Position numbers and translations under genes: made by a program
Shown here: positions 1 through 17,149 of the stretch, in pieces
Layout: the number at the start of each line of letters is the position of its first letter
Position numbering within the stretch: position 1 is the stretch's first letter
DNA from: Flavobacterium sp. SUN052
Lineage (GTDB): Bacteria; Bacteroidota; Bacteroidia; Flavobacteriales; Flavobacteriaceae
Direction: 5' to 3'
Length of the DNA: 64,000 nucleotides
Assembly (NCBI RefSeq): GCF_028867935.1
Contig: NZ_JAPQNS010000005.1
Location: 124,001 to 188,000, forward strand
Notes under the pieces: generated by a model
The model's database searches: none
What the model was told of the DNA's origin: nothing
Seen by the model: the letters and a program-made list of their open reading frames with translations, nothing else

Positions 1-1
1 T

Positions 2-274
2 ACCCAAAGCCTTGCGGGGCCTAATCTGCCCCTGATTACCTTAATCCAACCCCTCGACCCACAGAATTTGCCCGTGTTCCAGGTACTGGGCGGGGTTTCG
101 TACGAGCGGTTACAAGTAATAGACCGGATCAATGGTTATGAGATTCGCCGAAATGATTTCAACGTCACGGGTATTTTTACAATTGATCGATTAACGCCTT
201 ATACGATAACTGTAACAGCCGCTACGGGATGTAAGCGGACGGTGCGGGGCTTAATACAGAGCGTAGGCAACTGA
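2..274 (+). CDS. C-terminal tail of a truncated exported protein with the shared C-terminal domain
   Basis: This is the last 90 codons of a gene whose start lies left of the window; the frame is open from base 2. The tail contains LGGVSYERLQVIDRINGYEI and ends with a GCKRTVRG-type motif. The same pattern (LGG-x-S/R..V-x-DRINGYEI...TG...GC-x-RTV-x-G) closes the proteins at 5013, 11319 and 15155. Nothing can be said about the missing N-terminal part. By analogy with its neighbours it is inferred to be a large exported repeat protein. The function of the domain is unknown. It is followed directly by a decayed copy of the same domain. Confidence 0.8.
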   Translation, partial: TQSLAGPNLPLITLIQPLDPQNLPVFQVLGGVSYERLQVIDRINGYEIRRNDFNVTGIFTIDRLTPYTITVTAATGCKRTVRGLIQSVGN

Positions 275-284
275 GCCTGATGGG

Positions 285-412
285 GCTCGGTTGTTGATTT
301 CGCTAGAAAGATAGCAGCAAGGGCGTATTTGCCATAAACGGCTGGGCTTATTCGCCATAACTGTTGCGACGGCTGTAGCCGCACGGTACAGGACATACTG
401 GCCAATCCCTAA
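285..412 (+). pseudogene. Frameshifted relic of the shared C-terminal domain
   Basis: No open frame covers this stretch, but pieces in different frames line up in order with the shared domain. KDSSKGVFAIN is encoded around 312-344, RLGLFAITVAT around 345-370 in another frame, and GCSRTVQDILANP followed by a stop at 371-412 in a third. The intact domain reads TGVFEISRLGPFSVTV...GCSRTVQGILVNP in the protein at 5013. At least two frameshifts and loss of the first half are needed to explain it. It is best read as the remains of another paralogue. Confidence 0.7.
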
Positions 413-502: not shown

Positions 503-3500
503 ATGCGTGTATCATTTTACCATCAATGGGGTGTCTTTTTGCTGGGTCTGATCCTGGCAAGTCCCCTGGCCAACGCTCAGTCTGGCTTTTTTGAACCCCT
601 CTCGTCGGCGCAGGCGCGCACCGCTACACCCGATGCCGGTAAGTTGGAGCGGTCCGCCGTCTATCGGCTGAAAACAGCTGAACTTCGGACGTATCTGGCC
701 AAAGCTCCGCTTGAGTTTCGCAACAGTACGGCCCCACTCCGGTTGGCGATTCCATTACCTAACGGAACGGTCGAAACGTTCGGCATCCTCGAATCGCCCA
801 TTCTGTCGCCTGCCCTTTCGGTGGTTCACCGGGACATTAAAACCTACACGGGCCGGGGCCTGGCCAACCCAACCTATACCATCCGGTTGAGTCTGACCTC
901 CAGCGGGTTCGATGCCATCATTCTGGGCGTTGAAAACGATGCCGTATATTATTCCAAAATATCGGACAGCCCCGGCAGCGAGGTGTATATGACTTATTTT
1001 GCCCGCGAAGCCAAGCGGGCCTCTGCCGAAGCCCAACCGTTTGGGTTGCGGGCCAAATGCGGAACCGAATCCACTCCGCTCGACGTGAAAACGTTCCCGC
1101 AAGGGCAGGCCCGGCTGGCCAACAATACCGGAACCATGCTGCGTACGTTCCGGCTGGCCGTGGCTACAACGGGCGAGTTCACCCAGCGCAAAGGGGGCGG
1201 CAATGTCAATAACGCCTTCAATGCGGTGGTGAGTTACGTCAACCGGATGAACGCCGTTTATCGCGTTGAACTGAGTGTAGCATTTCAGTTGGTGAGCGGC
1301 ACCAACATCGTGTATGCCAACCCCGCCACCGACCCCTATGATAACAGCAAGCAAAGCCAGATGCTGACTGAGAACCAGAACAACCTGAACGCGGTAATCA
1401 AGCCAGAGAATTATGATGTAGGCCACGTGTTTGGAACATCTGGTGGGTCGGGCGGTGGTATTGCCAGAGCACGCAGCGTTTGCAATGATAACGTGAAGGG
1501 GCAGGGCGTATCGGGCGTGGGCGACGGAAGCTTTGCGGCTGTCTTCGACGATCAACTCATTTCGCACGAGGTGGGTCACCAGTTCGGTATGGACCATACC
1601 TACAACAGTTCGAAGATTGGTGCGTGTACCACCCGCGAGGCCAACTTCTCCGTTGAACCAGGCTCCGGCACAACGATCATGAGTTACGGGTTTACCTGTT
1701 TTGATAATTCGGGCAACAACGATGACTACGAATCAACCTACCTGCCCTTCCTGAATTTTCACACGGTCAGTTATCAGCAGGCTGTCGAGTTCATGGCGAC
1801 CGTTTCGTGCGGCCCGTCAATCGCTACCAACAATGCCGTACCATCCATTGGGCAGTTCCCTGCCAACACAACCATTCCTCGCTCAACGCCGTTTGAATTG
1901 ACTGGAACGGCTACCGATGCCAACGCGGGCGATGTGCTGAGTTATTCGTGGGAAGGTACCAACATTGGCAACGCCGATGATACCACTATTTCGACATTGA
2001 GAAATACGGCGATGCCGCCTTTTTTCCGGAGTTATCCCCCCGTACCCACTGGTACACGGGTTTTCCCGCGTCTGGAGGCCATTCTGAACGGTTCCAACTA
2101 CGCTACCGGCGATAAACTGCCTTCGGTGGGCATTGCCACTACCCACCGCCTGACCGTGCGCGACGGGGTGGGTGGGGTGACCTACCAAACCGTTACCGTT
2201 ACCGTGGACGGAAACGCCGGTCCGTTTCTGGTTACCTCGAACCTCAATGGATCTTATACCGGCGGTACGCAACAGACCATTAACTGGGACGTAGCCAACA
2301 CCACGGCGGCCCCCGTGAACTGCGCCAGCGTAAACATCCAACTCTCGACGGATGGCGGCCGCACCTTCCCCATCACGTTGCTGGCCAACACGCCCAATGA
2401 TGGTACCGAAACCATTACGTTCCCCAACATAACGAACAATCAGTGCCGGATCAGGGTCATGGCCGCCAACAACATATTCTTCGACATATCGAACAGCAAT
2501 TTCACCGTTCTCGACCCCAACAACCAGCCGCCGGTTGCCGTTGCCATTCCGAACCAGACTGGAACACTCGATGTCGCGTTCAGCTATACTGTACCAGCGT
2601 TTACTGACCCTGAAAATCAGGCATTGTCATACCGGGCTATTGGCTTGCCTACCTCGCTGTCGATGAACCCAGACACGCGGGTGATTAGTGGAATGCCTAG
2701 GGCACTTGGGCCTTTTTCGGTCTCCGTAATTGCCACCGACCCCGGCAATGCCACCGCCCTTGGCACGTTTACACTGACCATTAATCCGGGGCCTTTCGTG
2801 CAGTTGGTGGGCAGTTTATCGGCGGGTGCTACTACCGTACTAACCACAGGGGCTATTACTCTGTCGGCCTCAGCTTCGGGGGGGCGACCTCCTTACAAGT
2901 TCGCGTTTGATTATCCTGATGGAAGCATTACGTTTTCCCCTACGTCGGCTACCATTACCGGAATGTCGGCGGGGGTAAAAACGCTGACGGTGGTTGTTAC
3001 GGATAACACGCTGCCCAGCAATCAGACCGTTGTAGCTACAGCGAACGTGACGGTGAATACCCCCGGCGGTGCTCCGGTGGTAGGTGTGGAAGCTACCGAC
3101 GCAACAGCGAGCGAACGCCGAACGACTAACCCAGCAACTGCTTCCAAACAGGCCCGCGTGGCCGCCGATGCGAGTGACGTGGATTCGGGAGTTATCCAGT
3201 TCCAGCGGAACTCGTCGGTGGGGCAGTTAGTTGTCGATTATCGAATCGATGGCTCGGCTATTCCGGGTGTCGATTATGTGCAGCTGCCTGGTTCAATGAC
3301 ATTCCTGGATGGCCAGAGTACGGTTGACGTAGAGATCATTCCTATTGTTGATGACAACAGTTCGGAGCAGGACGAGACCATTATTATCTCGCTTATTGAT
3401 GAAGATGGGTACGACCTTGACCCCGCCGAAGCCTCGGCCACAGTAACTATTGTGGGCGATGTGCCCACGCCGTCTTCGAGCCTTACAATCACAAGTTTTA

Positions 3501-4615
3501 CCTGCAATGGTTCCACCACACAGACGCTTAACCGGGTAGATTTTGTGGTGAGTCGAGCCGATGGTTCGTTTGCGCCCGCCGTTGCCCCGCTGCTGATTGT
3601 AGGCGTAACAGGTAATGGATCGCTTGGAACCCGTTACTCGTTGCCGTTTGACCAGAACGTGAATACACTAACGGTTCAGGATGCAGCTACGCGCTCGGCA
3701 TACTTTACCTGGGATTTCCGGCAAGCCTGTTTGAGTAGTCCGCCTACTTCTACTACCGTGGTGCTCCCTACACCGTCTTCGAGCCTGACCATTACCAGCT
3801 TCACCTGCAACGGTTCTACCGCACAAACGCTCAGTCGGGTAGATTTCGTGATAAGCCGGGCCGATGGTAGTTTCGCCCCTGCGGTTGCTCCGCTGCTGAT
3901 TGTGGGAGTAACGGGCAACGGATCGCTGGGTATGCGGTACTCGCTTCCCTTTGACCAGAATGTAAGTACACTGGCGGTGCAGGATGCGGCTACCCGCTCC
4001 ACTTACTTCGTCTGGGATTTCCGGCAGGCATGTCTGGGCACCCCACCAAGCTCAACTACCACCTCGCCGAGTACTCTGACTATTACCAGCTTCACCTGCA
4101 CCGGCTCCACCAATGCCACGCTTAGCCGGGTAGACTTTGTGGTGGGTCGGACCGATGGTTCATTTGCGCCTGCCGTTGCCCCGCTGCTGATTGTGGGCGC
4201 AACAGGTAATGGATCGCTTGGAACCCGTTACTCGTTGCCGTTTGACCAGAACGTGAATACACTAACGGTTCAGGATGCGGCCACGCGCTCGGCGTACTTT
4301 ACCTGGAACTTCCGGCAAGCCTGTTTGAGCGACAAAGCCCGTCAGAGTGCCGAATTAACCGCCCCTTGGCAGGTGTCGGTGTTAGGCAACCCAACTACGG
4401 CTCAGGTGGAGATATTGGTAACGGGTGCTCAGGGTCAGTCGATCGAGTTAAGTTTGCTCGATGTATCAGGCCGCAAGTTGGTAAGCCGTTACGTAAAGCC
4501 TCAGCTGAATGCGCATCGGGAAACGGTTGATGTATCGGCTCTATCCAGTAATTTGCTCATTTTGCGGGCTACAGACGGGCAACGTAGCCAAACAGTGAAG
4601 ATTGTCAAGCAATGA
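503..4615 (+). CDS. Secreted reprolysin-like metzincin protease with Calx-beta, triple-repeat and T9SS sorting domain
   Basis: A 1370-residue exported zinc protease. Residues 1-25 form a signal peptide ending in ANA-Q. A propeptide-like region follows, then the catalytic domain with HEVGHQFGMDH at 355-365, a full HExxHxxGxxH metzincin site, and a Met-turn TIMSYG with Met393. Ig/cadherin-like segments with NQPPVAVAIPNQTG and FTDPENQ motifs span roughly 440-870. A Calx-beta domain follows at about 880-986 (GVDYVQLPGSMTF, DDNSSEQDETI). Three copies of an unrecognised repeat of about 100 residues lie at 991-1277. The last 80 residues (VLGNPTT...LLDVSGRKL...LRATDGQRSQTVKIVK) are a type A T9SS sorting domain. 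The product is therefore expected outside the cell or on its surface. The substrate is unknown. The ATG at 503 gives an intact signal peptide. Confidence 0.9.
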   Translation: MRVSFYHQWGVFLLGLILASPLANAQSGFFEPLSSAQARTATPDAGKLERSAVYRLKTAELRTYLAKAPLEFRNSTAPLRLAIPLPNGTVETFGILESPILSPALSVVHRDIKTYTGRGLANPTYTIRLSLTSSGFDAIILGVENDAVYYSKISDSPGSEVYMTYFAREAKRASAEAQPFGLRAKCGTESTPLDVKTFPQGQARLANNTGTMLRTFRLAVATTGEFTQRKGGGNVNNAFNAVVSYVNRMNAVYRVELSVAFQLVSGTNIVYANPATDPYDNSKQSQMLTENQNNLNAVIKPENYDVGHVFGTSGGSGGGIARARSVCNDNVKGQGVSGVGDGSFAAVFDDQLISHEVGHQFGMDHTYNSSKIGACTTREANFSVEPGSGTTIMSYGFTCFDNSGNNDDYESTYLPFLNFHTVSYQQAVEFMATVSCGPSIATNNAVPSIGQFPANTTIPRSTPFELTGTATDANAGDVLSYSWEGTNIGNADDTTISTLRNTAMPPFFRSYPPVPTGTRVFPRLEAILNGSNYATGDKLPSVGIATTHRLTVRDGVGGVTYQTVTVTVDGNAGPFLVTSNLNGSYTGGTQQTINWDVANTTAAPVNCASVNIQLSTDGGRTFPITLLANTPNDGTETITFPNITNNQCRIRVMAANNIFFDISNSNFTVLDPNNQPPVAVAIPNQTGTLDVAFSYTVPAFTDPENQALSYRAIGLPTSLSMNPDTRVISGMPRALGPFSVSVIATDPGNATALGTFTLTINPGPFVQLVGSLSAGATTVLTTGAITLSASASGGRPPYKFAFDYPDGSITFSPTSATITGMSAGVKTLTVVVTDNTLPSNQTVVATANVTVNTPGGAPVVGVEATDATASERRTTNPATASKQARVAADASDVDSGVIQFQRNSSVGQLVVDYRIDGSAIPGVDYVQLPGSMTFLDGQSTVDVEIIPIVDDNSSEQDETIIISLIDEDGYDLDPAEASATVTIVGDVPTPSSSLTITSFTCNGSTTQTLNRVDFVVSRADGSFAPAVAPLLIVGVTGNGSLGTRYSLPFDQNVNTLTVQDAATRSAYFTWDFRQACLSSPPTSTTVVLPTPSSSLTITSFTCNGSTAQTLSRVDFVISRADGSFAPAVAPLLIVGVTGNGSLGMRYSLPFDQNVSTLAVQDAATRSTYFVWDFRQACLGTPPSSTTTSPSTLTITSFTCTGSTNATLSRVDFVVGRTDGSFAPAVAPLLIVGATGNGSLGTRYSLPFDQNVNTLTVQDAATRSAYFTWNFRQACLSDKARQSAELTAPWQVSVLGNPTTAQVEILVTGAQGQSIELSLLDVSGRKLVSRYVKPQLNAHRETVDVSALSSNLLILRATDGQRSQTVKIVKQ
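3473..4333 (+). repeat. Three in-frame tandem repeats of about 300 bp inside the metzincin gene
   Basis: Units start near 3473, 3776 and 4070, giving periods of about 303 and 294 bases. Each encodes LTITSFTC-x-GST..., a D-G-SFAPAVAPLLIVG segment, LPFDQNV and FRQAC, with two conserved cysteines. Copies 1 and 3 share a long identical stretch (the bases encoding GNGSLGTRYSLPFDQNVNTL and a little beyond), while copy 2 differs at many silent sites. This suggests conversion or recent copying between the outer units. Confidence 0.85.
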
Positions 4616-5012: not shown

Positions 5013-8000
5013 ATGCAAACCTCTCTACTTCATTCCCGGCTTCGGGCCGCTTGTTCTTTTAGTTTACTCAGTGGCTCAGCTCGTTTATGGCTATCGCTGC
5101 TGGCGGCCTTGTTGTTTATTCAACCCCTCAGGGCACAAACCATCGCTACGGTAGCCGGAACGGGTGCACAAGGGTATAATGGTGATAACATTCAGGCTAC
5201 TGCTGCCCAGTTAAGTTCACCAAATGCGGTTGTTCTTGATGCGTCGGGCAATATGTTTATTGCGGAAGCCGGCAATAATCGGATTCGTAGGGTTGACAAA
5301 GCAACGGGCGTTATCACCACCATAGCGGGTAATGGGGTGGCAGGCAGTTCGGGTGATAACGGACCGGCTACCAGTGCCCAACTGAACGCACCCGTCGCAC
5401 TGGCCTTCAATAGCAACTATTCTGTTTTGTACATTGCTGACTTCAACAATCACAAGGTTCGCCGGATAGACATAAACTCAGGCACTATTGTAACAGTAGT
5501 TGGTACGGGTACGCCAGGCAGTACGATTGGTTCTGGTAACCCCAATGGTACATCCAGTCAGCTAAACGGTCCCGCCGGTCTGACGGTGGACGGTTCTGAC
5601 CTACTATATATATCCGATCAGCAAAATCATCGAATTCTACGCTATGACAGTCCCTCCTCCTTCCTTTCTTCCTTCGCGGGGACGGGTACGGCGGGTTATA
5701 ACGGGAATAATTCCCCCGCTACTTCGTTTCAGCTAAATACTCCCGGTGGTCTGGCGTTCAATGGGACGAGCGTGTATGTTGCTGATCGGTTAAATCATCG
5801 CGTCCGTAAGATCGACATACCGACTAACTCAATCTCTAACGTAGCGGGTAGTGGTACGGCGGGATATAGTGGCGACGGTGGACAGGCGGGTAGTGCTCAG
5901 TTGAACAGACCAGATGGAATTGCCTTTGATGCTACGGGCAGACTGTATATCGCGGATCGGGATAACCACCGCGTCCGCCGGATGGACCTCTCGAATGGAG
6001 CGGGCCTGATCTTCACAGTAGCAGGAACAGGGACAGCCGGTTTTAGCGGGGATGGCAGTCCGGCCACCAGTGCCCAGCTTAATGAACCCGCTGCGGTAGC
6101 TTTTGACCCTTCGGGAAGCCTGTTTATCGCCGACATTTCCAACCAACGCATTCGCAGACTGAGTAATGCACTAACCGCTGTGGCTCAAGCCCGCCCTAAC
6201 CCCGTTTGCGCAGGTAGCTCAGCGGCTCTGTCCGTCACGGCTACGGGCGGCACGACCCCCTACAGCTACACCTGGGCCGCTCCGGCGGGCGTGGTGCTGT
6301 CGGGCACAAGTACCTCGGCCATCACGGCTACGCCTAAAGCGGGGGTTTCGGGGGTGCAAACGCTCACGATTACCGTGGCCGATGCGGCCTCTACACCCGT
6401 TCGCAGTACGAGCTTAGTGAGCCTGACGGTGAACGCGCCGATTACGGTTGGCATTGCGGCCACACCCTCGCTCACCATCGGCACGGGCCAAAGCACCACG
6501 CTCACGGCTTCGGTACCGGGGGCTACGGGGGCCGTTACGTATGAATGGTCGGCCAACACGGGCGGGGTGGTGTCGAACTCGGTGGTGGTCAACACCGCCG
6601 GAACCTACTCGGTAACGGCCACGTCGGGCGGGTGTTCGGCCACGGCCTCGGCGGTAGTGAGCGTCACGGTTCTGACGTTCTGCAACACGGTGGCCTACGC
6701 AACCCCGGCGGGGGCGGGCCTGAAAAACGGCACCTCGTGGGCCAACGCCATGACGGGTATCGACCTGCCCCCGGCCTTAGCCTCGTCCTGCGCGGGCACT
6801 ACGTTTTTGGTGGGAGCAGGGCTTTACAAACCTACGACCGTCACCACCGACCGGGGAGCCTCGTTTGCCATTGCACCGGGCGTGGAAGTCTACGGCGGCT
6901 ACACGGTGTCGGGTGGGTCGGCCACGCGCGGCCCGGTTAACCCCGTGACAGGTGCGCCCAGCAGCACCACCTTTTCGGGCGATATCGACAACAATAATGT
7001 ACTCAACTCATCGAACACCAGCAGCGTGGTCTCGTTCAGCAATGCCACCGGCAGCACCCGGCTCGACGGGGTGGTGATTACCGAGGGCTACGCCAGTGTG
7101 ATCGACGCGAGCGGGGGCGGCATCCGGGTTGTCGGGACGGGTAGCCCCACGTTGACCAACTGCCTCATCACAGCCAACTACGCCGGTAATCAGGGCGGGG
7201 GGTATTTTCACGACGCGCCCACCAGTCCTATTCTGACCGATTGCGCGTTTACGAGCAACACCGCCACCCTGGGCGGGGCCGTGTTTGTGAACACGTCGAT
7301 TGCGCTGATGGTCAACGGGTTACGGATTCGACAGAACACCGCCCAGGCTAACGGGGGGGGCATTCTGACCAACGGTCCGGTGGTGGTGCAGAGCAGCGAC
7401 ATCAGCCAGAATACGGCGGGTAGCCTCGGCGGGGCCATCTACCTGAACACGGGCAATACGTCGTTGAGTATTACCAGCAGTACGCTGGTGCAGAACCAGA
7501 GTAACGCGCCGGGCGGGGCTATCTCAAATTTAAACAGCATGACCACCACGCTCACCGACGTGTTGATGGACGACAACGTGAGCAGCAGCAACGGCGGTTC
7601 GCTCTATGTGGGCAGCAGCAACTCGCCCCTGACCATGACCAACGTACGGATGCGCCGAAACCGGGCCAACGCACCGGGTGGGGCCGTGTATGCCAACGGG
7701 CCGGTAACGATCACGGGGTCCGACATCAGCCAGAATACCTGCACGAATGGCCCGGGCGGGGCGTTGCACCTCAATACGAGCAGTAGCCTGAGCATCACCA
7801 GCAGTACACTGAGTCAGAACCAGAGCAACGGGCCGGGCGGGGCCGTTAACAGTGCTGCCAGCATGACCGCCACCCTTACCGACGTAGTCATGGACGACAA
7901 CGTGAGCAACGCCAACGGTGGTGCGATGTACATAAGTAGCAGTAACTCACCCCTGACGATGACTAACGTACAAATGCGCCGAAATCGGGCCAACTCACCG

Positions 8001-10361
8001 GGCGGGGCCATCCAGACCAACGGCGATGTGCGCCTGACAAACTGCGACATCAGCCAGAATAGCGCGAGCAGTATCGGTGGTGCGCTGTGTAACTCGTCGG
8101 GGGGCGCACTAACGGCGATCAACACCCGCCTGAACGGGAACCGCAGCAATGGGCCGGGCGGAGCCGTATTTGTGAGCGGTTCCGTATTTCTCTCCGGTGT
8201 TCAGATGAGTCAGAACTCGGCCACGGGCAGTTCGTCTGACGGCGGGGCACTCTACACGAATTCAGCGAGTAGTTTTAGCGTGGTCAGTAGCACCCTGAGC
8301 CAGAATCAGGCTACGGGGCAGGCCGGGGCCGTGTATGTGTCGGGCAGTGGTAATAACCCAACGATCTTAACCGACGTTGTAATGAGCCAGAATACGGCTG
8401 TAAATGGCCAGGCGGGTGCGTTTTATCAGGGAAATAACAGCAGTACGCTCTTGATGACCAACGTGCAGATGAACGAAAATCAGAGCGGAACTTCGGGTGG
8501 GGCCTTGTCCCCCAACGGCCCTGTTTCGATGACCAACTGCACCCTGAACCTGAACCGAGCGTTGGGTGGTAACGGGGGTGGGGCGGTTTCTGCATCTACG
8601 TCCGTGAGCGCGCTCAACAGCCAGTTCAATAGTAACAGAGCCAGCCAGAATGGGGGAGCTATTACTGCCAGCGACGTATTCCTGACAAACTGCGCCATCA
8701 GTCAGAACTCAGCCACAGGGGGCAGCAGCAACTATGGGGGCGGGTTGTTTATGAGTAGCGGCAATTCTAATCTGTTATCGTGCAGCTTAGCCCAGAACAC
8801 GAGTGGGCAGCAAGGGGGCGCGATCTTTACGTATGCTCCAATGCAGGTGGTCAACAGTATGTTTAGCCGCAACACAGCCCTGGAAATAGGCGGGGCCATT
8901 CAGACCTTCTCCTCCCTGACGTTGATCAACAACAGCCTGAGCGGTAACACGGCCCCGGCAGGCGCGGCTGTGGCTAATAGTAGTTCTGGGGTAGTACTCG
9001 CCCAGAACAGCATTCTGTGGAACAACGGTACCCCGGCCACCTCGCTCACCAACACCTTCACAGGCAGTATCTCACTGACCTACAGCCTGATCAACCCCGG
9101 CGCGACGTTCACAGATGGCGGCAACAACAAAACCTCCGACCCCCTGTTTACCAGTGCCGCCACCGATGATCTGACGCTGAGCGGCTGCTCACCCGCCATC
9201 GACGCGGGCAACAACGCCTTCAACAGCACCCCCACCGATGGGGCGGGCAACAGCCGCATTGTCAACAGCACCGGAACGCCGGCCGCCACCATCGACATGG
9301 GGGCCTACGAGTTCAGCGGCACGCCCCGTCAGGCTAACGCCATCACGATGCAGCCACCAGGCGGCTCGGCAGTGTGTAGCGGGGCCACCGTCAGCATTCC
9401 CGTCAGTGTGAGCGGGTCGGGGCCAATCTCGGCCCAGCTTTACCGCAACGGCGCACCCGTGGGCAGTCCCCAAACGAACACCACCACCTTTACCCTCGCC
9501 AACGTGCAACCCGCCGATGCAGGTAGCTACTCGGTGGTCATCAGTGGCGGTTGCAACAGCTTGACCACCAGCGCCTTTACGCTGACGGTCGGTATAACGC
9601 CCGCCAACCCCACGCTTGTAGCCAGCGGCCCCATTACCTGTACGCAAACCGCCGTTCGGCTCACAGCCACCACCAGCAGCGCGGGTAATTTCTCTTACGC
9701 CTTCGCCGGTCCCAACGTGACCAACGCCAGCCCTACAGCAGGCACGGCACTGGCTAACGCAGGCGGACCGTACTCCGTCACGATCACCGACTTAGCGTCC
9801 AACTGTTTCAGCACGGCCACCACCTCGGTGCAGGCCGACACGGCCCCACCTGCGGTGAGCATCAGCCCCAGTGCGCCCGCGCTGGGTTGTGGCATTAGCA
9901 GCGTCACGCTTACGGCCAACGTTTCGGCGGGGGCCACCTACCGCTGGGACAACGGGAGCGTGAACCAGCCCACGCGGGTGATCTCGGCATCGGGGGTGTA
10001 TGGGTTGAGCGCGACAGCCACCAACGGCTGTTCGGCCACGGCCACGAGTGTGACCATCACCCAGGGCAACACCGTGTTGCCTACCGTGACGCTGGTATTC
10101 AACAACTCGGCCACCGTGATGGGGTCGGGTACGCCAACGATCATGATTCCCAACACGCCGGGGCAGCAGTTCCGGGCGTTGGGCGGGGTGAGCTACGAGT
10201 ACGTCTCGGTAATCGACCGGATCAACGGCTACGAGATTCGTACGAGCGAGCGCAACAGCACGGGCGTGTTCGAGATCAGTCGCTTAGGGCCGTTCAGCGT
10301 AACGGTAAACGATGGCACGGGCTGTAGCCGCACCGTGCAGGGCATTCTGGTCAATCCCTGA
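5013..10361 (+). CDS. Giant exported NHL-propeller / parallel beta-helix protein with shared C-terminal domain
   Basis: A 1782-residue exported protein. An N-terminal export signal runs to about residue 42 (AALLFIQPLRAQ). Six NHL repeats at about 42-385, each with a GTGxxGYxGDGxxATSAQLNxP-like turn and a YIADxxNHRVRRID-like strand, should form a six-bladed propeller. Ig/PKD-like segments follow to about 555. A long right-handed parallel beta-helix (about 557-1435) opens with GTSWANA and has many GGAV/GGAI...DISQN rungs. Three Ig-like segments and the shared C-terminal domain (about 1690-1782, ending GCSRTVQGILVNP) close the protein. No canonical T9SS tail is seen; the terminal domain may take that role, which is inference. 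A surface adhesin or glycan-binding role is plausible but unproven. The gene shares its upstream module with the gene at 11319. Confidence 0.9.
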   Translation: MQTSLLHSRLRAACSFSLLSGSARLWLSLLAALLFIQPLRAQTIATVAGTGAQGYNGDNIQATAAQLSSPNAVVLDASGNMFIAEAGNNRIRRVDKATGVITTIAGNGVAGSSGDNGPATSAQLNAPVALAFNSNYSVLYIADFNNHKVRRIDINSGTIVTVVGTGTPGSTIGSGNPNGTSSQLNGPAGLTVDGSDLLYISDQQNHRILRYDSPSSFLSSFAGTGTAGYNGNNSPATSFQLNTPGGLAFNGTSVYVADRLNHRVRKIDIPTNSISNVAGSGTAGYSGDGGQAGSAQLNRPDGIAFDATGRLYIADRDNHRVRRMDLSNGAGLIFTVAGTGTAGFSGDGSPATSAQLNEPAAVAFDPSGSLFIADISNQRIRRLSNALTAVAQARPNPVCAGSSAALSVTATGGTTPYSYTWAAPAGVVLSGTSTSAITATPKAGVSGVQTLTITVADAASTPVRSTSLVSLTVNAPITVGIAATPSLTIGTGQSTTLTASVPGATGAVTYEWSANTGGVVSNSVVVNTAGTYSVTATSGGCSATASAVVSVTVLTFCNTVAYATPAGAGLKNGTSWANAMTGIDLPPALASSCAGTTFLVGAGLYKPTTVTTDRGASFAIAPGVEVYGGYTVSGGSATRGPVNPVTGAPSSTTFSGDIDNNNVLNSSNTSSVVSFSNATGSTRLDGVVITEGYASVIDASGGGIRVVGTGSPTLTNCLITANYAGNQGGGYFHDAPTSPILTDCAFTSNTATLGGAVFVNTSIALMVNGLRIRQNTAQANGGGILTNGPVVVQSSDISQNTAGSLGGAIYLNTGNTSLSITSSTLVQNQSNAPGGAISNLNSMTTTLTDVLMDDNVSSSNGGSLYVGSSNSPLTMTNVRMRRNRANAPGGAVYANGPVTITGSDISQNTCTNGPGGALHLNTSSSLSITSSTLSQNQSNGPGGAVNSAASMTATLTDVVMDDNVSNANGGAMYISSSNSPLTMTNVQMRRNRANSPGGAIQTNGDVRLTNCDISQNSASSIGGALCNSSGGALTAINTRLNGNRSNGPGGAVFVSGSVFLSGVQMSQNSATGSSSDGGALYTNSASSFSVVSSTLSQNQATGQAGAVYVSGSGNNPTILTDVVMSQNTAVNGQAGAFYQGNNSSTLLMTNVQMNENQSGTSGGALSPNGPVSMTNCTLNLNRALGGNGGGAVSASTSVSALNSQFNSNRASQNGGAITASDVFLTNCAISQNSATGGSSNYGGGLFMSSGNSNLLSCSLAQNTSGQQGGAIFTYAPMQVVNSMFSRNTALEIGGAIQTFSSLTLINNSLSGNTAPAGAAVANSSSGVVLAQNSILWNNGTPATSLTNTFTGSISLTYSLINPGATFTDGGNNKTSDPLFTSAATDDLTLSGCSPAIDAGNNAFNSTPTDGAGNSRIVNSTGTPAATIDMGAYEFSGTPRQANAITMQPPGGSAVCSGATVSIPVSVSGSGPISAQLYRNGAPVGSPQTNTTTFTLANVQPADAGSYSVVISGGCNSLTTSAFTLTVGITPANPTLVASGPITCTQTAVRLTATTSSAGNFSYAFAGPNVTNASPTAGTALANAGGPYSVTITDLASNCFSTATTSVQADTAPPAVSISPSAPALGCGISSVTLTANVSAGATYRWDNGSVNQPTRVISASGVYGLSATATNGCSATATSVTITQGNTVLPTVTLVFNNSATVMGSGTPTIMIPNTPGQQFRALGGVSYEYVSVIDRINGYEIRTSERNSTGVFEISRLGPFSVTVNDGTGCSRTVQGILVNP
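7380..8027 (+). repeat. 324-bp in-gene tandem duplication in the beta-helix
   Basis: Codons for 108 residues at 7380-7703 are repeated at 7704-8027. Both units carry SDISQNT, SLSITSSTL.QNQSN, TLTDV.MDDNVS and NSPLTMTNV.MRRNRAN in the same order. The unit spans several helix rungs, so the duplication lengthens the fibre without breaking it. Shorter rung repeats continue on both sides. Confidence 0.8.
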
Positions 10362-10477: not shown

Positions 10478-11074
10478 ATGAAGCCCCCCTATCGCACGGT
10501 TCTCATCGACGACCACCGCATATTTAGTGATGGCCTTACCCAGATGTTAGGCAACTCCACCCAATTTACCGTAGTGGAGCAGGTCTTCGACAGCCGCCGG
10601 GCCTATGACGCTTGTTCCAGGCTCCAGCCTGACCTGGTGCTGGTAGATTACAACATGCCTTATTTGGATGGCGAGTCAGTAGTGGTGCAATTGGGACTTC
10701 TGACCCATGCGTGCCGGATTGTGGTCATCAGCCTGTATACCGACCAGGCGGAGAGAGCCCGGTTGCATGCGCTAAACGTGGATGGCTACCTGGCCAAGAC
10801 CCTGCCTGCTGACCGGCTGCTGACCTTGCTGAATCGGGTAATGCATGGGGAGCGCGTAATCGACAGTGATCTGCCTTCCGAGCCATTTGCCGCCCTTGCC
10901 GACCCATTCTGGCACCCACTGACCAAACGCGAACTGGACATTTTAAAAGGGATAAAGCAAGGTCTAAGCACTGAGCAGATTGCCATTGAGTATAGCCTCA
11001 GCTACAGTACGGTGCAAACCTACCGTAAACACCTTAACCGCAAACTGCCTTTCCTGATCCAAAGAGAGCTCTAG
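10478..11074 (+). CDS. Orphan NarL/LuxR-type response regulator
   Basis: A 198-residue cytoplasmic regulator. The receiver domain (about 5-120) has the acidic pair D11-D12, the phospho-acceptor D57 in LVLVDYNMP, and the switch lysine in GYLAKT. A LuxR-type helix-turn-helix follows (LTKRELDILKGIKQGLSTEQ and STVQTYRKHLNRKL). The last helix is short compared with the family. No histidine kinase is encoded nearby. The gene sits between two exported beta-helix genes that share a palindrome, so it is a candidate for their regulator; that link is inference. An out-of-frame ATG at 10467 lies in a duplicated ACCCCCATGA sequence, and the ATG at 10478 gives the complete receiver fold. Confidence 0.9.
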   Translation: MKPPYRTVLIDDHRIFSDGLTQMLGNSTQFTVVEQVFDSRRAYDACSRLQPDLVLVDYNMPYLDGESVVVQLGLLTHACRIVVISLYTDQAERARLHALNVDGYLAKTLPADRLLTLLNRVMHGERVIDSDLPSEPFAALADPFWHPLTKRELDILKGIKQGLSTEQIAIEYSLSYSTVQTYRKHLNRKLPFLIQREL

Positions 11075-11318: not shown

Positions 11319-13589
11319 ATGAATCAACCTTTTCTTGCTCAGCCCCAACGGGCTGGTTGGTTAAGCGGCTGGCGGTTTAGTCCGAAGTCCTTGCTGCTAG
11401 TTCTCTGTTTGTTAAGCCCAGCTCTGGTTTGGGGGCAAACCACTCTGTACGTGTCGACCACCGGAACGGCGGCTCCCGCAATGGCCATCTCCTGGGCACA
11501 AAGTACATCCGATTTGCAGGGAGCAATCGATGAAGTAAGCACTACCAGCGGAACCGTGTGCGTGGCGCAGGGTATCTATCAGCCTGGTGGCCCAGGTAAC
11601 ACCACTCAGGCAGCAAGTTTCACGTTGCCTAGTGGTGTGACGGTGATGGGTGGCTACATAGGTGCTGCCGGTACTACGGGTCCGGGACCCCGTACTTCGT
11701 TCCCATCGACAACGACCCTGACGGGAAACATGATCAGCTACCACGTGGTGTTGATGACTAACGTAAGCGAGGATACCCGGCTGGATGGCTTTGTTATCAC
11801 TGGTGGCAACGCCAACGGCAGTGAATTTCCGGATAATAGTGGCGGTGGTATTTTCAATATGGCCAACGGCTCCGGAATCACTAGCAATCCATTACTAACA
11901 AACTTGATCCTGACTTCCAATCAGGCTTCATTTGGGGGGGGAATGCACAATCAGGCTGAAGACTTCGGCACAGCCAATCCCTCGCTGACGGGTGTGCTGC
12001 TCAGTCACAACACCGCTATCTTCGACGGGGGAGCCATGCTCAACTGGGGCTTTGGGGGCACCAGCAGCCCCGCTCTCACTAGCGTTACGCTGACGGCCAA
12101 CCAGGCTTCCAGTGGGGGCGGCCTCTATAACTACGCATTCTTTGGCACGGCCAACGCGACGATGACGAATGTGTCTTTGCAGCAGAATATCTCTACCAAT
12201 GAAGGGGGAGGGATGCATAACCTGGGCATCAGTGGTAGCAGTAGCCCTCTCCTCAGCAGCGTCACGCTGACAGCGAACAGCGCATCCAGCGGTGGCGGAA
12301 ATTACAATGAAGCCTTATTACTTGGGGAAGCCAGTGCGGCACTGCTGGACGTACTCTTCAACCAGAACACGGCTTCTGGCACTGGTTCTGCTACCGTTGG
12401 TGGAGGAGCCATGTACAACTTGGGCAACGGGGGCACCAGTAGCCCCGTTCTTACCAACGTCACGCTTACGGCCAACAAGGCTGAAAATGGGGGCGGGATG
12501 TTTAACCTAGCTCAACTAGATGGCACGACGAGCGGGACGGCCAGTGCGACGCTGACGGGTGTACTCTTTAGCCAGAACACAGCTACGGGAGTCGGGGGGG
12601 CTCTGTTCAACAAGGGCGTTGATGGCGTCAGTAGTCCCGTTATAACAAATACGACCTTCTTCGCCAACCAGGGTGGACAGGGTGGTGCGGTCTTCAATAC
12701 GGAAGCGGGTGCAACTGTCTCGATTAGCAATGCCACTTTTGGTTATAATGGTGCTGCCAACGGAGGGTCAGTCATTGCCAATACCAATACGGCGTCCGCA
12801 ACCCTGATCAACTGCGTATTTTTTGGCAATAGCCCCGGCGACGCGTTTAGCGGTTTACCCATGGTGGGCAACTCCCTGCTGGAAAATACTATTTTGGCCA
12901 ACTCATACAAGGGAGCCAACTGGAGTGGGGGTGATAACCTGGTCACCAACCAATCGCCTTTTGTCGATGGCCCCGGTGGCGACCTGCGGCTCAAGTCGTG
13001 TGCGCTGTCCATCGGTGCCTATGTGTTTCAGGGTATGCCTACCTCGTCCGTTGATATCACCCAGCAACCACCCGCTTCGTCGGTGGTTTGTGGAGAAAGC
13101 ACCGTTGCGATTCCCTTCAGCGTGAGCGGAACGGGACCCTTTTTAGCTCAGCTTTTCCGCAATGATCAACTGGTAGCTACCCAGCCGGGAAGCTCCACCT
13201 TCACGCTGACCAATGTACAGCCTGCCGATGCCGGCACCTACTCCGTAGTCGTGACGGGCGCCTGCAACACCGTCACTTCAACAGCCTTCAGCCTACTGGT
13301 AAACTCCCCCATGGTCACGCTGGTGTTCAATAACAGCGCCACCGTCATGGGCACGGGAGTGCCAACTATAACCGTGCCCGACACGCCGGGTCAACAGTTT
13401 CAGGTGCTGGGTGGGACTAGTTTCGGGAGGGTGATCGTGCTTGATCGCATCAATGGCTATGAGGTTCGCCAGAATGACCAGAACACAACCGGTATATTCC
13501 CGATCAACCGGCTAGGGCCATTCAGCCTAACGGTGCGTGCCGATAACGGCTGTAGCCGCACCGTGCAGGGTATATTGGCGAAGCCGTAA
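11319..13589 (+). CDS. Exported parallel beta-helix protein with shared Ig and C-terminal domains
   Basis: A 756-residue paralogue of the beta-helix part of the 5013 protein, without the NHL propeller. An export signal ends near residue 40 (LLSPALVWGQ). The helix region (about 42-575) has a family-typical opening with SWAQSTSDLQGAIDE, MGGY and LDGFVITGGNA, then rungs of the type SSP-x-LTSVTLTANQASSGGG. An Ig-like domain at about 578-662 (ITQQPPASSVVCGESTVAIP, ADAGTYSVVVTGAC) is close to that in the 5013 protein. The shared C-terminal domain at about 664-756 ends GCSRTVQGILAKP. It is probably cotranscribed with the EF-hand gene 29 bases downstream. Location at the cell surface is inferred; no binding partner can be read from the sequence. 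Confidence 0.9.
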   Translation: MNQPFLAQPQRAGWLSGWRFSPKSLLLVLCLLSPALVWGQTTLYVSTTGTAAPAMAISWAQSTSDLQGAIDEVSTTSGTVCVAQGIYQPGGPGNTTQAASFTLPSGVTVMGGYIGAAGTTGPGPRTSFPSTTTLTGNMISYHVVLMTNVSEDTRLDGFVITGGNANGSEFPDNSGGGIFNMANGSGITSNPLLTNLILTSNQASFGGGMHNQAEDFGTANPSLTGVLLSHNTAIFDGGAMLNWGFGGTSSPALTSVTLTANQASSGGGLYNYAFFGTANATMTNVSLQQNISTNEGGGMHNLGISGSSSPLLSSVTLTANSASSGGGNYNEALLLGEASAALLDVLFNQNTASGTGSATVGGGAMYNLGNGGTSSPVLTNVTLTANKAENGGGMFNLAQLDGTTSGTASATLTGVLFSQNTATGVGGALFNKGVDGVSSPVITNTTFFANQGGQGGAVFNTEAGATVSISNATFGYNGAANGGSVIANTNTASATLINCVFFGNSPGDAFSGLPMVGNSLLENTILANSYKGANWSGGDNLVTNQSPFVDGPGGDLRLKSCALSIGAYVFQGMPTSSVDITQQPPASSVVCGESTVAIPFSVSGTGPFLAQLFRNDQLVATQPGSSTFTLTNVQPADAGTYSVVVTGACNTVTSTAFSLLVNSPMVTLVFNNSATVMGTGVPTITVPDTPGQQFQVLGGTSFGRVIVLDRINGYEVRQNDQNTTGIFPINRLGPFSLTVRADNGCSRTVQGILAKP

Positions 13590-15154: not shown

Positions 15155-17149
15155 ATGGATGTAGTGATTATCCAAGTCTACGTCCGAATCGGGGCTGGCT
15201 GTGGGGTATCTAAATTCATAAAGCTAATGGATAGCCCTAACCCGTATCCCCGGGTTAGCATCACAACAACACCATCGTTAACCATTTCAGGGGGACAAAG
15301 TGCAACGCTGACCGCGTCAGGGGCAGACCAGTACCAATGGTCAACGGGAGAAAAATCCAGAACGATTACCCGGGCAGAATTGGGAATATATTCCCTGACA
15401 GGAACCACAAAAGGGTGTTCGACAACAACCCTCACCACGCTTATTGTCATCGAAAGACCCAGAATCGAAGTTGATGCCAGATTTGCGTATATCTATTCTG
15501 GTAATAACTGTACAGCCGAAGTAAGCCTGGTGTTTTCGGGATCGAAGCTTACTATTACTGGACCCCAAAACTATAAATCGTCTAACTCATGGCGCCTACC
15601 CCAGATCAATAATAAAGGGTATTTCCAACTTAAAACGCCGGGTACGTACACGGTAGTTGTAGCGAATGCTGCCGGACAGACCACCACGACCACCTTCAAG
15701 GTGGAGAATTTAGGTGACTGTCCTGTGTCAAACAGCCAACCTGTCAATCAGTTAAACGCTCGTTCGGCCCGATTAGCCAATGGAAATCTTGCCATGTCCC
15801 TCAGTCCTGACAGGGAGACATACGCCACCGGCGAATTGGTGACGGTGCAACTCACGGGCGGAGTCCCCGGCACCGACTATAACCTGAACCTGTATGATGG
15901 CGACCCGACCTACGGTGCTTCCAGCCTGATACTATCGGTTAGCAGCGCCCAGGGAACAGGCAACGTAATCACCTGGGGGAGTAACCCTACCGAAGAGTTT
16001 TATGTCCTATTCAGGCCGGGCACGGGAGGTTCCGGCCGGGTTCTGGAAGTGACCAACGACGATTTCTCCGACTTTGTGGACAGCGACCCTTTTGACATTC
16101 AAGACTGTTCGATCACCGCAAAACTGATTGCTTCCTCAGCAACGTTGACCTGCGCACAGCCAAGCGTAACCCTGACGGCTTCTACCACGGGCGAGGAATT
16201 GATGTACGTCTTCGAAGGTCCGGGGCTGTTGCCGGGTAGTCTATTTGACCCCAGCCGAACCGTCGATGCGCCGGGAATTTACTCAGTAACCGTCTCAGCG
16301 GGAAACGCCTGCACAACAACCGCTACGGCTTCAGTTACCATTAACGATGAACGGGATATGCCTGCCAACGCAACCCTCACGGGTGTACCCTCGGCTACGC
16401 TCACCTGCTCACACGCCACCGTGACCTTACAGGCACAGGCCAGCGGGCAGGGACTACAATATATCTTTGAAGGGCCATCGGGCAGTTTAGGCGGCAGTTC
16501 TGCCAGCCCCAGCCGGGAGGTCAGCGAGGCCGGATTTTATTCGGTGACGATTGTAGAAGCAAATGGCTGTTTCGTAACGGCTAACGTGACCGTTGAACAG
16601 GACCAGCCAGAGGGCGGAGCTGATATTAGTCTGCTGGCGAGCGGCTCGACAGTCTGTGAAGGGACTCCAGTAGTGGTTCCTGCCACGGTTTCGAGTGCAG
16701 GAGCTGGCTTCCAGTGGTATCGCAATGGGCAGGCTATAACGGGTCAAATCTCGGCCACGCTGATGCTGGGTAGCGCAGGGGCCGACGATTCAGGCAGTTA
16801 CTGGCTGGTGGTAACGGGGCCGTGTAGCGCGACCAGCACCGCGTTTGAGCTGATGGTGAGCCCGCAGCCCACCGTGGTGCTGGTCTACCCCAATGACTCA
16901 CGCATTACTCCTAACGGGCAAATGCCGACCATCACCTTATTGGCCTCTTCAGGTCCGTATCAGGTATTGGGTGGTGTACGGTTCCGCTGGGTGACCGTGG
17001 TAGATCGTATCAACGGCTACGAAATTAGTCAGGTAGAAGAAAATACAACGGGGCTAATGCCGGTAGGCGCCCCGGGACCGTTCCGGCTGACAGTGACCAG
17101 CGCGCAGGGTTGTAGCCGCACGGTACAGGGCATTCTTGTGAATCCATAG
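15155..17149 (+). CDS. Ig-repeat protein with shared C-terminal domain, apparently missing its export signal
   Basis: A 664-residue frame. From about residue 35 it consists of Ig/PKD-like segments with spaced cysteines (SLTISGGQSATLTASG, SSATLTCAQPSVTLTAS, LTCSHATVTLQAQ), an Ig domain with ADDSGSYWLVVTGPC, and the shared C-terminal domain at about 572-664 (VVDRINGYEI, GCSRTVQGILVNP). All this belongs outside the cytoplasm, yet the first residues (MDVVIIQVYVRIGAGCG) are not a convincing signal peptide. The only other early ATG, at 15227, gives none either. The likely explanation is loss of the 5' end, leaving a silent or donor cassette. Leaderless export is the alternative. Confidence 0.7.
   Translation: MDVVIIQVYVRIGAGCGVSKFIKLMDSPNPYPRVSITTTPSLTISGGQSATLTASGADQYQWSTGEKSRTITRAELGIYSLTGTTKGCSTTTLTTLIVIERPRIEVDARFAYIYSGNNCTAEVSLVFSGSKLTITGPQNYKSSNSWRLPQINNKGYFQLKTPGTYTVVVANAAGQTTTTTFKVENLGDCPVSNSQPVNQLNARSARLANGNLAMSLSPDRETYATGELVTVQLTGGVPGTDYNLNLYDGDPTYGASSLILSVSSAQGTGNVITWGSNPTEEFYVLFRPGTGGSGRVLEVTNDDFSDFVDSDPFDIQDCSITAKLIASSATLTCAQPSVTLTASTTGEELMYVFEGPGLLPGSLFDPSRTVDAPGIYSVTVSAGNACTTTATASVTINDERDMPANATLTGVPSATLTCSHATVTLQAQASGQGLQYIFEGPSGSLGGSSASPSREVSEAGFYSVTIVEANGCFVTANVTVEQDQPEGGADISLLASGSTVCEGTPVVVPATVSSAGAGFQWYRNGQAITGQISATLMLGSAGADDSGSYWLVVTGPCSATSTAFELMVSPQPTVVLVYPNDSRITPNGQMPTITLLASSGPYQVLGGVRFRWVTVVDRINGYEISQVEENTTGLMPVGAPGPFRLTVTSAQGCSRTVQGILVNP

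Follow-up and report, generated by a model that had tools for sequence, protein, structure and literature searches.

A common C-terminal domain on many otherwise different proteins of a Bacteroidota genome: a candidate sorting or anchoring domain

Genes of the locus and the tail family

The window, the whole stretch of 64,000 nucleotides that was analysed, corresponds to C34:124001-188000 of its genome (G000; 8.1 Mb, 38 contigs). Four of its proteins, ending at 274, 10361, 13589 and 17149, close with one common domain of about 90 residues in the expected frames (Table 1), as the first-pass annotation had claimed. Compared with the tail ending at 10361, the other three copies are 67, 48 and 46% identical; the tail of the protein ending at 274 begins 23 bases before the window. 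Pairwise comparison of the four genes shows DNA that is 51-59% alike just before the tails and 49-68% alike within them. The conservation is therefore mainly at the protein level, and extends to the DNA only in the 10361/13589 pair.

Table 1. Coordinates of the tail copies and associated genes in the window
Feature	Position	Strand	Remarks
C-terminal tail of a protein whose gene starts outside the window	1..274	+	G000 C34, 671-residue frame
Broken tail copy	307..412 (about)	+	Split over three frames; its end reads DGCSRTVQDILANP-stop
T9SS type A tail of the reprolysin-like protease 503-4615	4388..4606	+	Contrast, not the new domain
Protein with signal peptide, NHL repeats, PMP-like repeats, choice-of-anchor Q, Ig-like domains and new tail	5013..10361	+	
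New tail domain	10086..10358	+	Tail of the 5013..10361 protein
LuxR-type response regulator	10478..11074	+	Between two tail genes; close relatives flank two other tail genes
Protein with signal peptide, repeats, Ig-like domain and new tail	11319..13589	+	
New tail domain	13314..13586	+	
Protein with Ig-like domains and new tail	15155..17149	+	No convincing signal peptide, probably 5'-truncated
New tail domain	16874..17146	+	

Other parts of the earlier description also held: the relic placed at 285-412 is real, and the first kilobases do contain a type A tail, from which the new module is distinct in sequence, with no match to PF18962 or TIGR04183 at the cut-off. That all four proteins are exported did not hold for the one at 15155-17149, which fails the stricter signal-peptide rule; a looser rule had flagged its start.

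With the 10361 tail as query we found 44 matches in G000 (E 1.9e-56 to 1.1e-6), so that the family of four is real but much larger than four, and every one of the 44 ends 0-8 residues before the stop codon. Three copies were set aside as broken or partial (C35:128006, C12:466487 and C33:126948), leaving 41. Known sorting tails are present in the same genome: PF18962 (type A) matches at 58 places at E 0.001, 50 of them above the cut-off, and PF13585 (type B) at 16. None of the 44 frames with the new tail is among the type A frames (54 of 58 read) or the type B frames (16 of 16 read). Together with one SprA gene these tails indicate that the host has a T9SS; five PorP/SprF genes are found as well. 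The first-pass annotation had raised the question whether the domain occurs only in genomes with a T9SS, which is true of G000 and, as judged from one type A tail in each, of the two relatives (G510 and G511) described below.

A simple hydropathy and charge rule found a signal-like start in 35 of the 39 tail proteins whose 5' ends are complete, 49 of 54 type A proteins and 14 of 16 type B proteins, compared to 22 of 195 internal segments. A signal peptide thus accompanies the tail in most proteins, though not always by this rule. On visual inspection, two of the four misses (C35:157658 and C6:92582) do resemble signal peptides; the other two, C33:17206 and the window protein at 15155-17149, do not, and both are apparently 5'-truncated. 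These results support the earlier view of a terminal domain that the lineage shares and that is carried mostly by signal-peptide proteins.

Distribution of the tail among genomes

A scan of 84,980 species genomes with one conserved peptide pattern, which may omit records of the source genome itself or of one very close to it, returned 73 stretches, of which 12 were confirmed. All 12 are in two genomes, Rudanella sp. CAN_BIN22 and Cytophagales bacterium PH2015_12D_54_44, and whole-genome searches found 3 strong copies (at least 92 bits) in the former and 21 in the latter. All but one of these 24 end at most 8 residues from the stop; the exception (L067) runs 83 residues past the tail, through an apparently damaged end. 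One more copy in the relatives is split in two (46 and 41 bits).

Elsewhere the searches returned weak matches only, of about 36 bits or less; they covered 120 genomes (best 42 candidates per genome scored), 395 genomes of the phylum (best 13 per genome) and 222 genomes from the family of the second relative (best 23 per genome). A plasmid search gave no match to the tail. Database labels make G000 a congener of G140 and a member of the same family as G001 and G006. The identity of its HflX to those of other genomes disagrees: 91-92% for G668 and G669, 89% for G511 and 83% for a fragment from G510, versus 55-57% for G001, G006 and G140 (57% for G140). Going by this protein sequence we treat the genus label as wrong, so that the 120-genome search and part of the 395-genome search covered distant genomes. 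From HflX as the sole marker, the host is near Rudanella, since the identities to G511, G668 and G669 far exceed those to the labelled kin. G668 and G669 yielded no strong tail copy among the scored candidates, though by HflX they are as close to G000 as G511 is, or closer. This may reflect loss, or a position of the two genomes outside the tail-bearing branch.

Exchange of tails on shared bodies

One exchange involves C36:108083, a frame of 2,415 residues that combines LTD and endonuclease/exonuclease/phosphatase domains with the new tail. The neighbour on its upstream side shares these domains, at 45% identity over 673 amino acids, but closes with a type A tail. That tail scores 22.7 bits in Pfam, below the cut-off, and reaches 53.1 bits against a profile built from the 52 other type A tails of the genome. 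This body has 82 matches in the 222 family genomes, and we read the ends of 39 homologues (30 returned loci and 9 chosen). The majority, 27, end in a type A tail (27.8-79.9 bits with the type A profile of the genome itself); six share another common tail, three have neither a type A, a type B nor a new tail, three lie at contig ends, and none carries the new tail. The tail common to the six (L192 and L198-L202) looks helical (HLPGIPSA...LLEKIEELTLY) and may resemble S74-type chaperone tails. The closest nuclease homologue, L205 (G559, 68%), is one of those without any of the three tails; its Ig-like end scores 6.1 bits with the new-tail profile and is possibly another terminal module, so far undescribed.

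A second case is the ice-binding protein C12:516761, which has 54 matches. Among the 30 homologues read, 17 end in a type A tail (22.8-36.0 bits), eight have none of the three tails and five run past the end of the retrieved sequence; one of the five has an internal stretch of 8.8 bits. In a third, weaker case, the N-terminal part of C35:150441 is common with four type B proteins (25-34%). NCBIfam scans of 13 full tail proteins located choice-of-anchor Q in five; the NCBI name of this domain presumably refers to its varied anchors.

Because homologues of both the nuclease and the ice-binding body often end in type A, the new tail appears to take, in the same place, the position of a T9SS address. 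A counter-point lies in the same counts: with 8 of 30 ice-binding and 3 of 39 nuclease homologues lacking all three tails and six nuclease homologues bearing a different one, these bodies do not invariably carry a T9SS tail. Like a T9SS sorting domain in the broad sense, the new tail is strictly C-terminal and found on signal-peptide proteins with varied bodies. The domain is terminal and exchangeable, sits on Sec-exported proteins in a genome with a T9SS, and occupies the position of type A tails. This suggests that it is probably a lineage-specific C-terminal sorting or anchoring domain that works like the CTDs of the T9SS. The sorting or anchoring role proposed by the first-pass annotation is thereby supported by inference, from strict terminal position and exchange with type A tails.

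Origin, putative function and comparison with known tails

No curated Pfam or NCBIfam family fits the tail, and neither collection yielded a match to any sorting domain already described. The type A (PF18962/TIGR04183) and type B (PF13585/TIGR04131) models do not match at their cut-offs; over 35 members the best match to TIGR04183 in NCBIfam has E 0.039, in one member. Among the Pfam matches of the same members are CarboxypepD_reg in eight (best E 3e-4), BiPBP_C in seven (4e-3) and PKD in one (2e-3), and those with bits displayed lie far under the curated cut-offs. A search of solved structures by sequence gave one weak match, GhpA (E 0.046), and one of 16 members matches a tail collar family in PHROGs (E 0.0028). 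The literature, searched by title and abstract with most subscription papers outside this scope, yielded no description of the tail. We also considered a divergent type A tail: a global alignment sets IDRINGYEIR on LxDxxGR with a score reached by 0 of 100 column shuffles, but the alignment is void as evidence because an ordinary Ig domain preceding the tail also beats all 60 shuffles. For type B, the alignment score was equalled in 27 of 100 shuffles in local mode and in 11 of 100 in global mode.

The relatives of the tail lie among internal repeats. An AlphaFold2 model of 10068-10358 (pLDDT 88.5, nine strands) predicts an Ig/PKD-like sandwich; that no solved type A CTD (RgpB, PorZ, HBP35) is among the 50 structure matches listed weighs neither way. 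Compared with 19 repeat units of G668 and G669 the tail gives an HHalign probability of 97.2% (E 3e-11), and within G000 itself the tail proteins and a small number of type A and type B proteins contain weak matches of this kind (30 above 12 bits, the best 23.1). Only the tail has, in the comparison with these repeats, an insert of 12 columns (VSVIDRINGYEI in the 10361 copy), which carries IDRINGYEI. By sequence kinship and predicted fold the tail falls among the PKD/Ig-like repeats. Given the HHalign match and the weak matches, we conclude from sequence and model that it is a modified repeat of this kind, kin of a common adhesin repeat and marked by the insert. Twenty weak matches that were fetched read as internal PKD/Ig-like repeats, one of them broken by a stop; none has the insert and 0 of 20 are terminal, which among these 20 rules out divergent terminal copies elsewhere. 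The earlier expectation that hits are always C-terminal thus holds for the strong copies, whereas the weak repeats without the diagnostic insert are internal.

The sequence kin of the tail are structural repeats, not sorting domains, a counter-point to the sorting reading. An alternative explanation is that the tail plays no part in export and instead serves as a terminal cap or assembly module: the final PKD/Ig domain of a surface protein, conserved for pairing subunits or for binding an outside partner. The clear kinship with internal repeats fits this explanation, as do the many bodies that are Ig-rich repeat proteins. However, endonuclease-like and ice-binding bodies bear the tail too, and type A tails close many of their homologues; since the same frames have no type A or type B tail, a cap would require another, so far unrecognised exit signal. 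We consider this explanation unlikely.

A single cysteine suggests a different alternative. It is present in all 41 intact tails of G000, 9-17 residues from the end, and in all 16 rows of the tail alignment, and it is the sole cysteine in the last 96 residues of 31 of the 41. In contrast, 51 of 54 type A tails and 11 of 16 type B tails of the genome have none, and the parent-like repeats of G668 and G669 have two in 19 of 19 units, so that the tail has lost the partner. The invariant cysteine might bond to an outer-membrane partner and so anchor the protein at the surface by chemistry, whether secretion is by the T9SS or not; in F. johnsoniae, SprF and PorG are disulfide-bonded to GldK (PMC12635249). 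However, of 35 mature tail proteins 23 have an even and 12 an odd total of cysteines, which makes a partner upstream in the same protein at least as likely as a free thiol. The parity gives no support to a free-thiol anchor as the main reading, and we regard the explanation as quite improbable. Ordinary paralogy, in which one repeat protein was copied often and only its end still aligns, would fit the tail-gene clusters on contigs C35, C33, C12 and C34, but it is highly improbable, as the scanned bodies fall into different Pfam families, and for two of them homologues in other genomes bear other tails.

If the tail is a sorting or anchoring domain, it would be peculiar to a Rudanella-like lineage of the Bacteroidota and take the role that CTDs of types A, B and C have elsewhere. 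Its carrier protein would enter the periplasm by Sec, the folded tail would be read at the outer membrane, and the body would end up outside or on the surface. The tail may have originated from an internal PKD/Ig-like repeat that gained the insert of about 12 residues and lost one of its two cysteines, and it would then have spread onto different bodies, replacing older tails. The T9SS would presumably carry it, the insert may serve as the recognition surface, and binding would be by a carrier other than an adjacent PorP/SprF. An adjacent PorP/SprF as carrier was rejected because no such gene lies beside a tail gene; each of the five in G000 either lies on a different contig or is separated from any tail gene by about 50 kb or more. 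The bolder version of this reading, that the tail represents a fourth class of T9SS signal ("type D"), made in one lineage from an internal PKD/Ig repeat with an insert and a lone cysteine, with its own dedicated carrier and displacing type A tails, we put forward tentatively, at a little short of even chances.

That version adds, just as tentatively, that many of these genes may adjoin their own sensor-regulators. A two-component, hybrid-sensor or AraC-type regulator adjoins 15 of 39 tail genes, 3 of 51 type A genes and 0 of 14 type B genes, in a count of readable neighbours only, with seeds from tail-gene flanks that favour the result and with flanks of different lengths. Pfam found regulator domains in six of eight neighbours of tail genes; the other two are a regulator-propeller piece without kinase and a TPR protein outside the count. 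The association of tail genes with regulators is a lead. Among the loci concerned are the window regulator (10478-11074), C34:121441, C9:78619, C35:166807 and C12:493336, as well as others.

Three classes of T9SS tail are recognised; how the machine reads them, and whether each implies a different destination, is described as open in PMC10202324. What is new here looks like a tail family outside the known type A and type B models, on dozens of otherwise different proteins. A large lineage-specific family with a traceable internal-repeat relative and natural exchanges would offer a view of the birth of a secretion signal and of its key residues. In this one genome, the tail also singles out about 40 proteins as likely to be at the surface, and the scanned ends of these proteins match no sorting-tail model of Pfam or NCBIfam.

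Among known systems, the PKD/Ig-like repeats of Bacteroidota adhesins (PKD, SprB and GhpA domains) differ from the tail in being internal and, in the 20 fetched, without the insert. The type C CTD (cl41395, ChiA) is likewise a C-terminal region and a minor third class; according to PMC10202324, this region of ChiA is needed for efficient secretion. NCBIfam, which probably includes a type C model, gave no type C match among the matches of the 35 members. In the comparison of profiles, HHalign relates type A to type B at 94% (E 8e-8) and finds no significant relation of the new tail to either. The type B CTD (PF13585, TIGR04131) is also terminal and carried by large or repeat-rich exported proteins, but its model does not match, the HHalign probability is 0.3%, and genes of the new tail have no adjoining PorP/SprF, which commonly, if not universally, adjoins type B genes (PMC12618676). 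The type A CTD (PF18962, TIGR04183) is unlike the tail in that its model gives no match at the cut-off, HHalign gives 6% and the type A tails of G000 mostly lack cysteine. Nevertheless, the two are alike in being about 75-90 residues long and strictly terminal on signal-peptide proteins, in their Ig-like beta sandwich, which is predicted for the new tail and described for type A in PMC10202324, and in having been exchanged with each other on two bodies.
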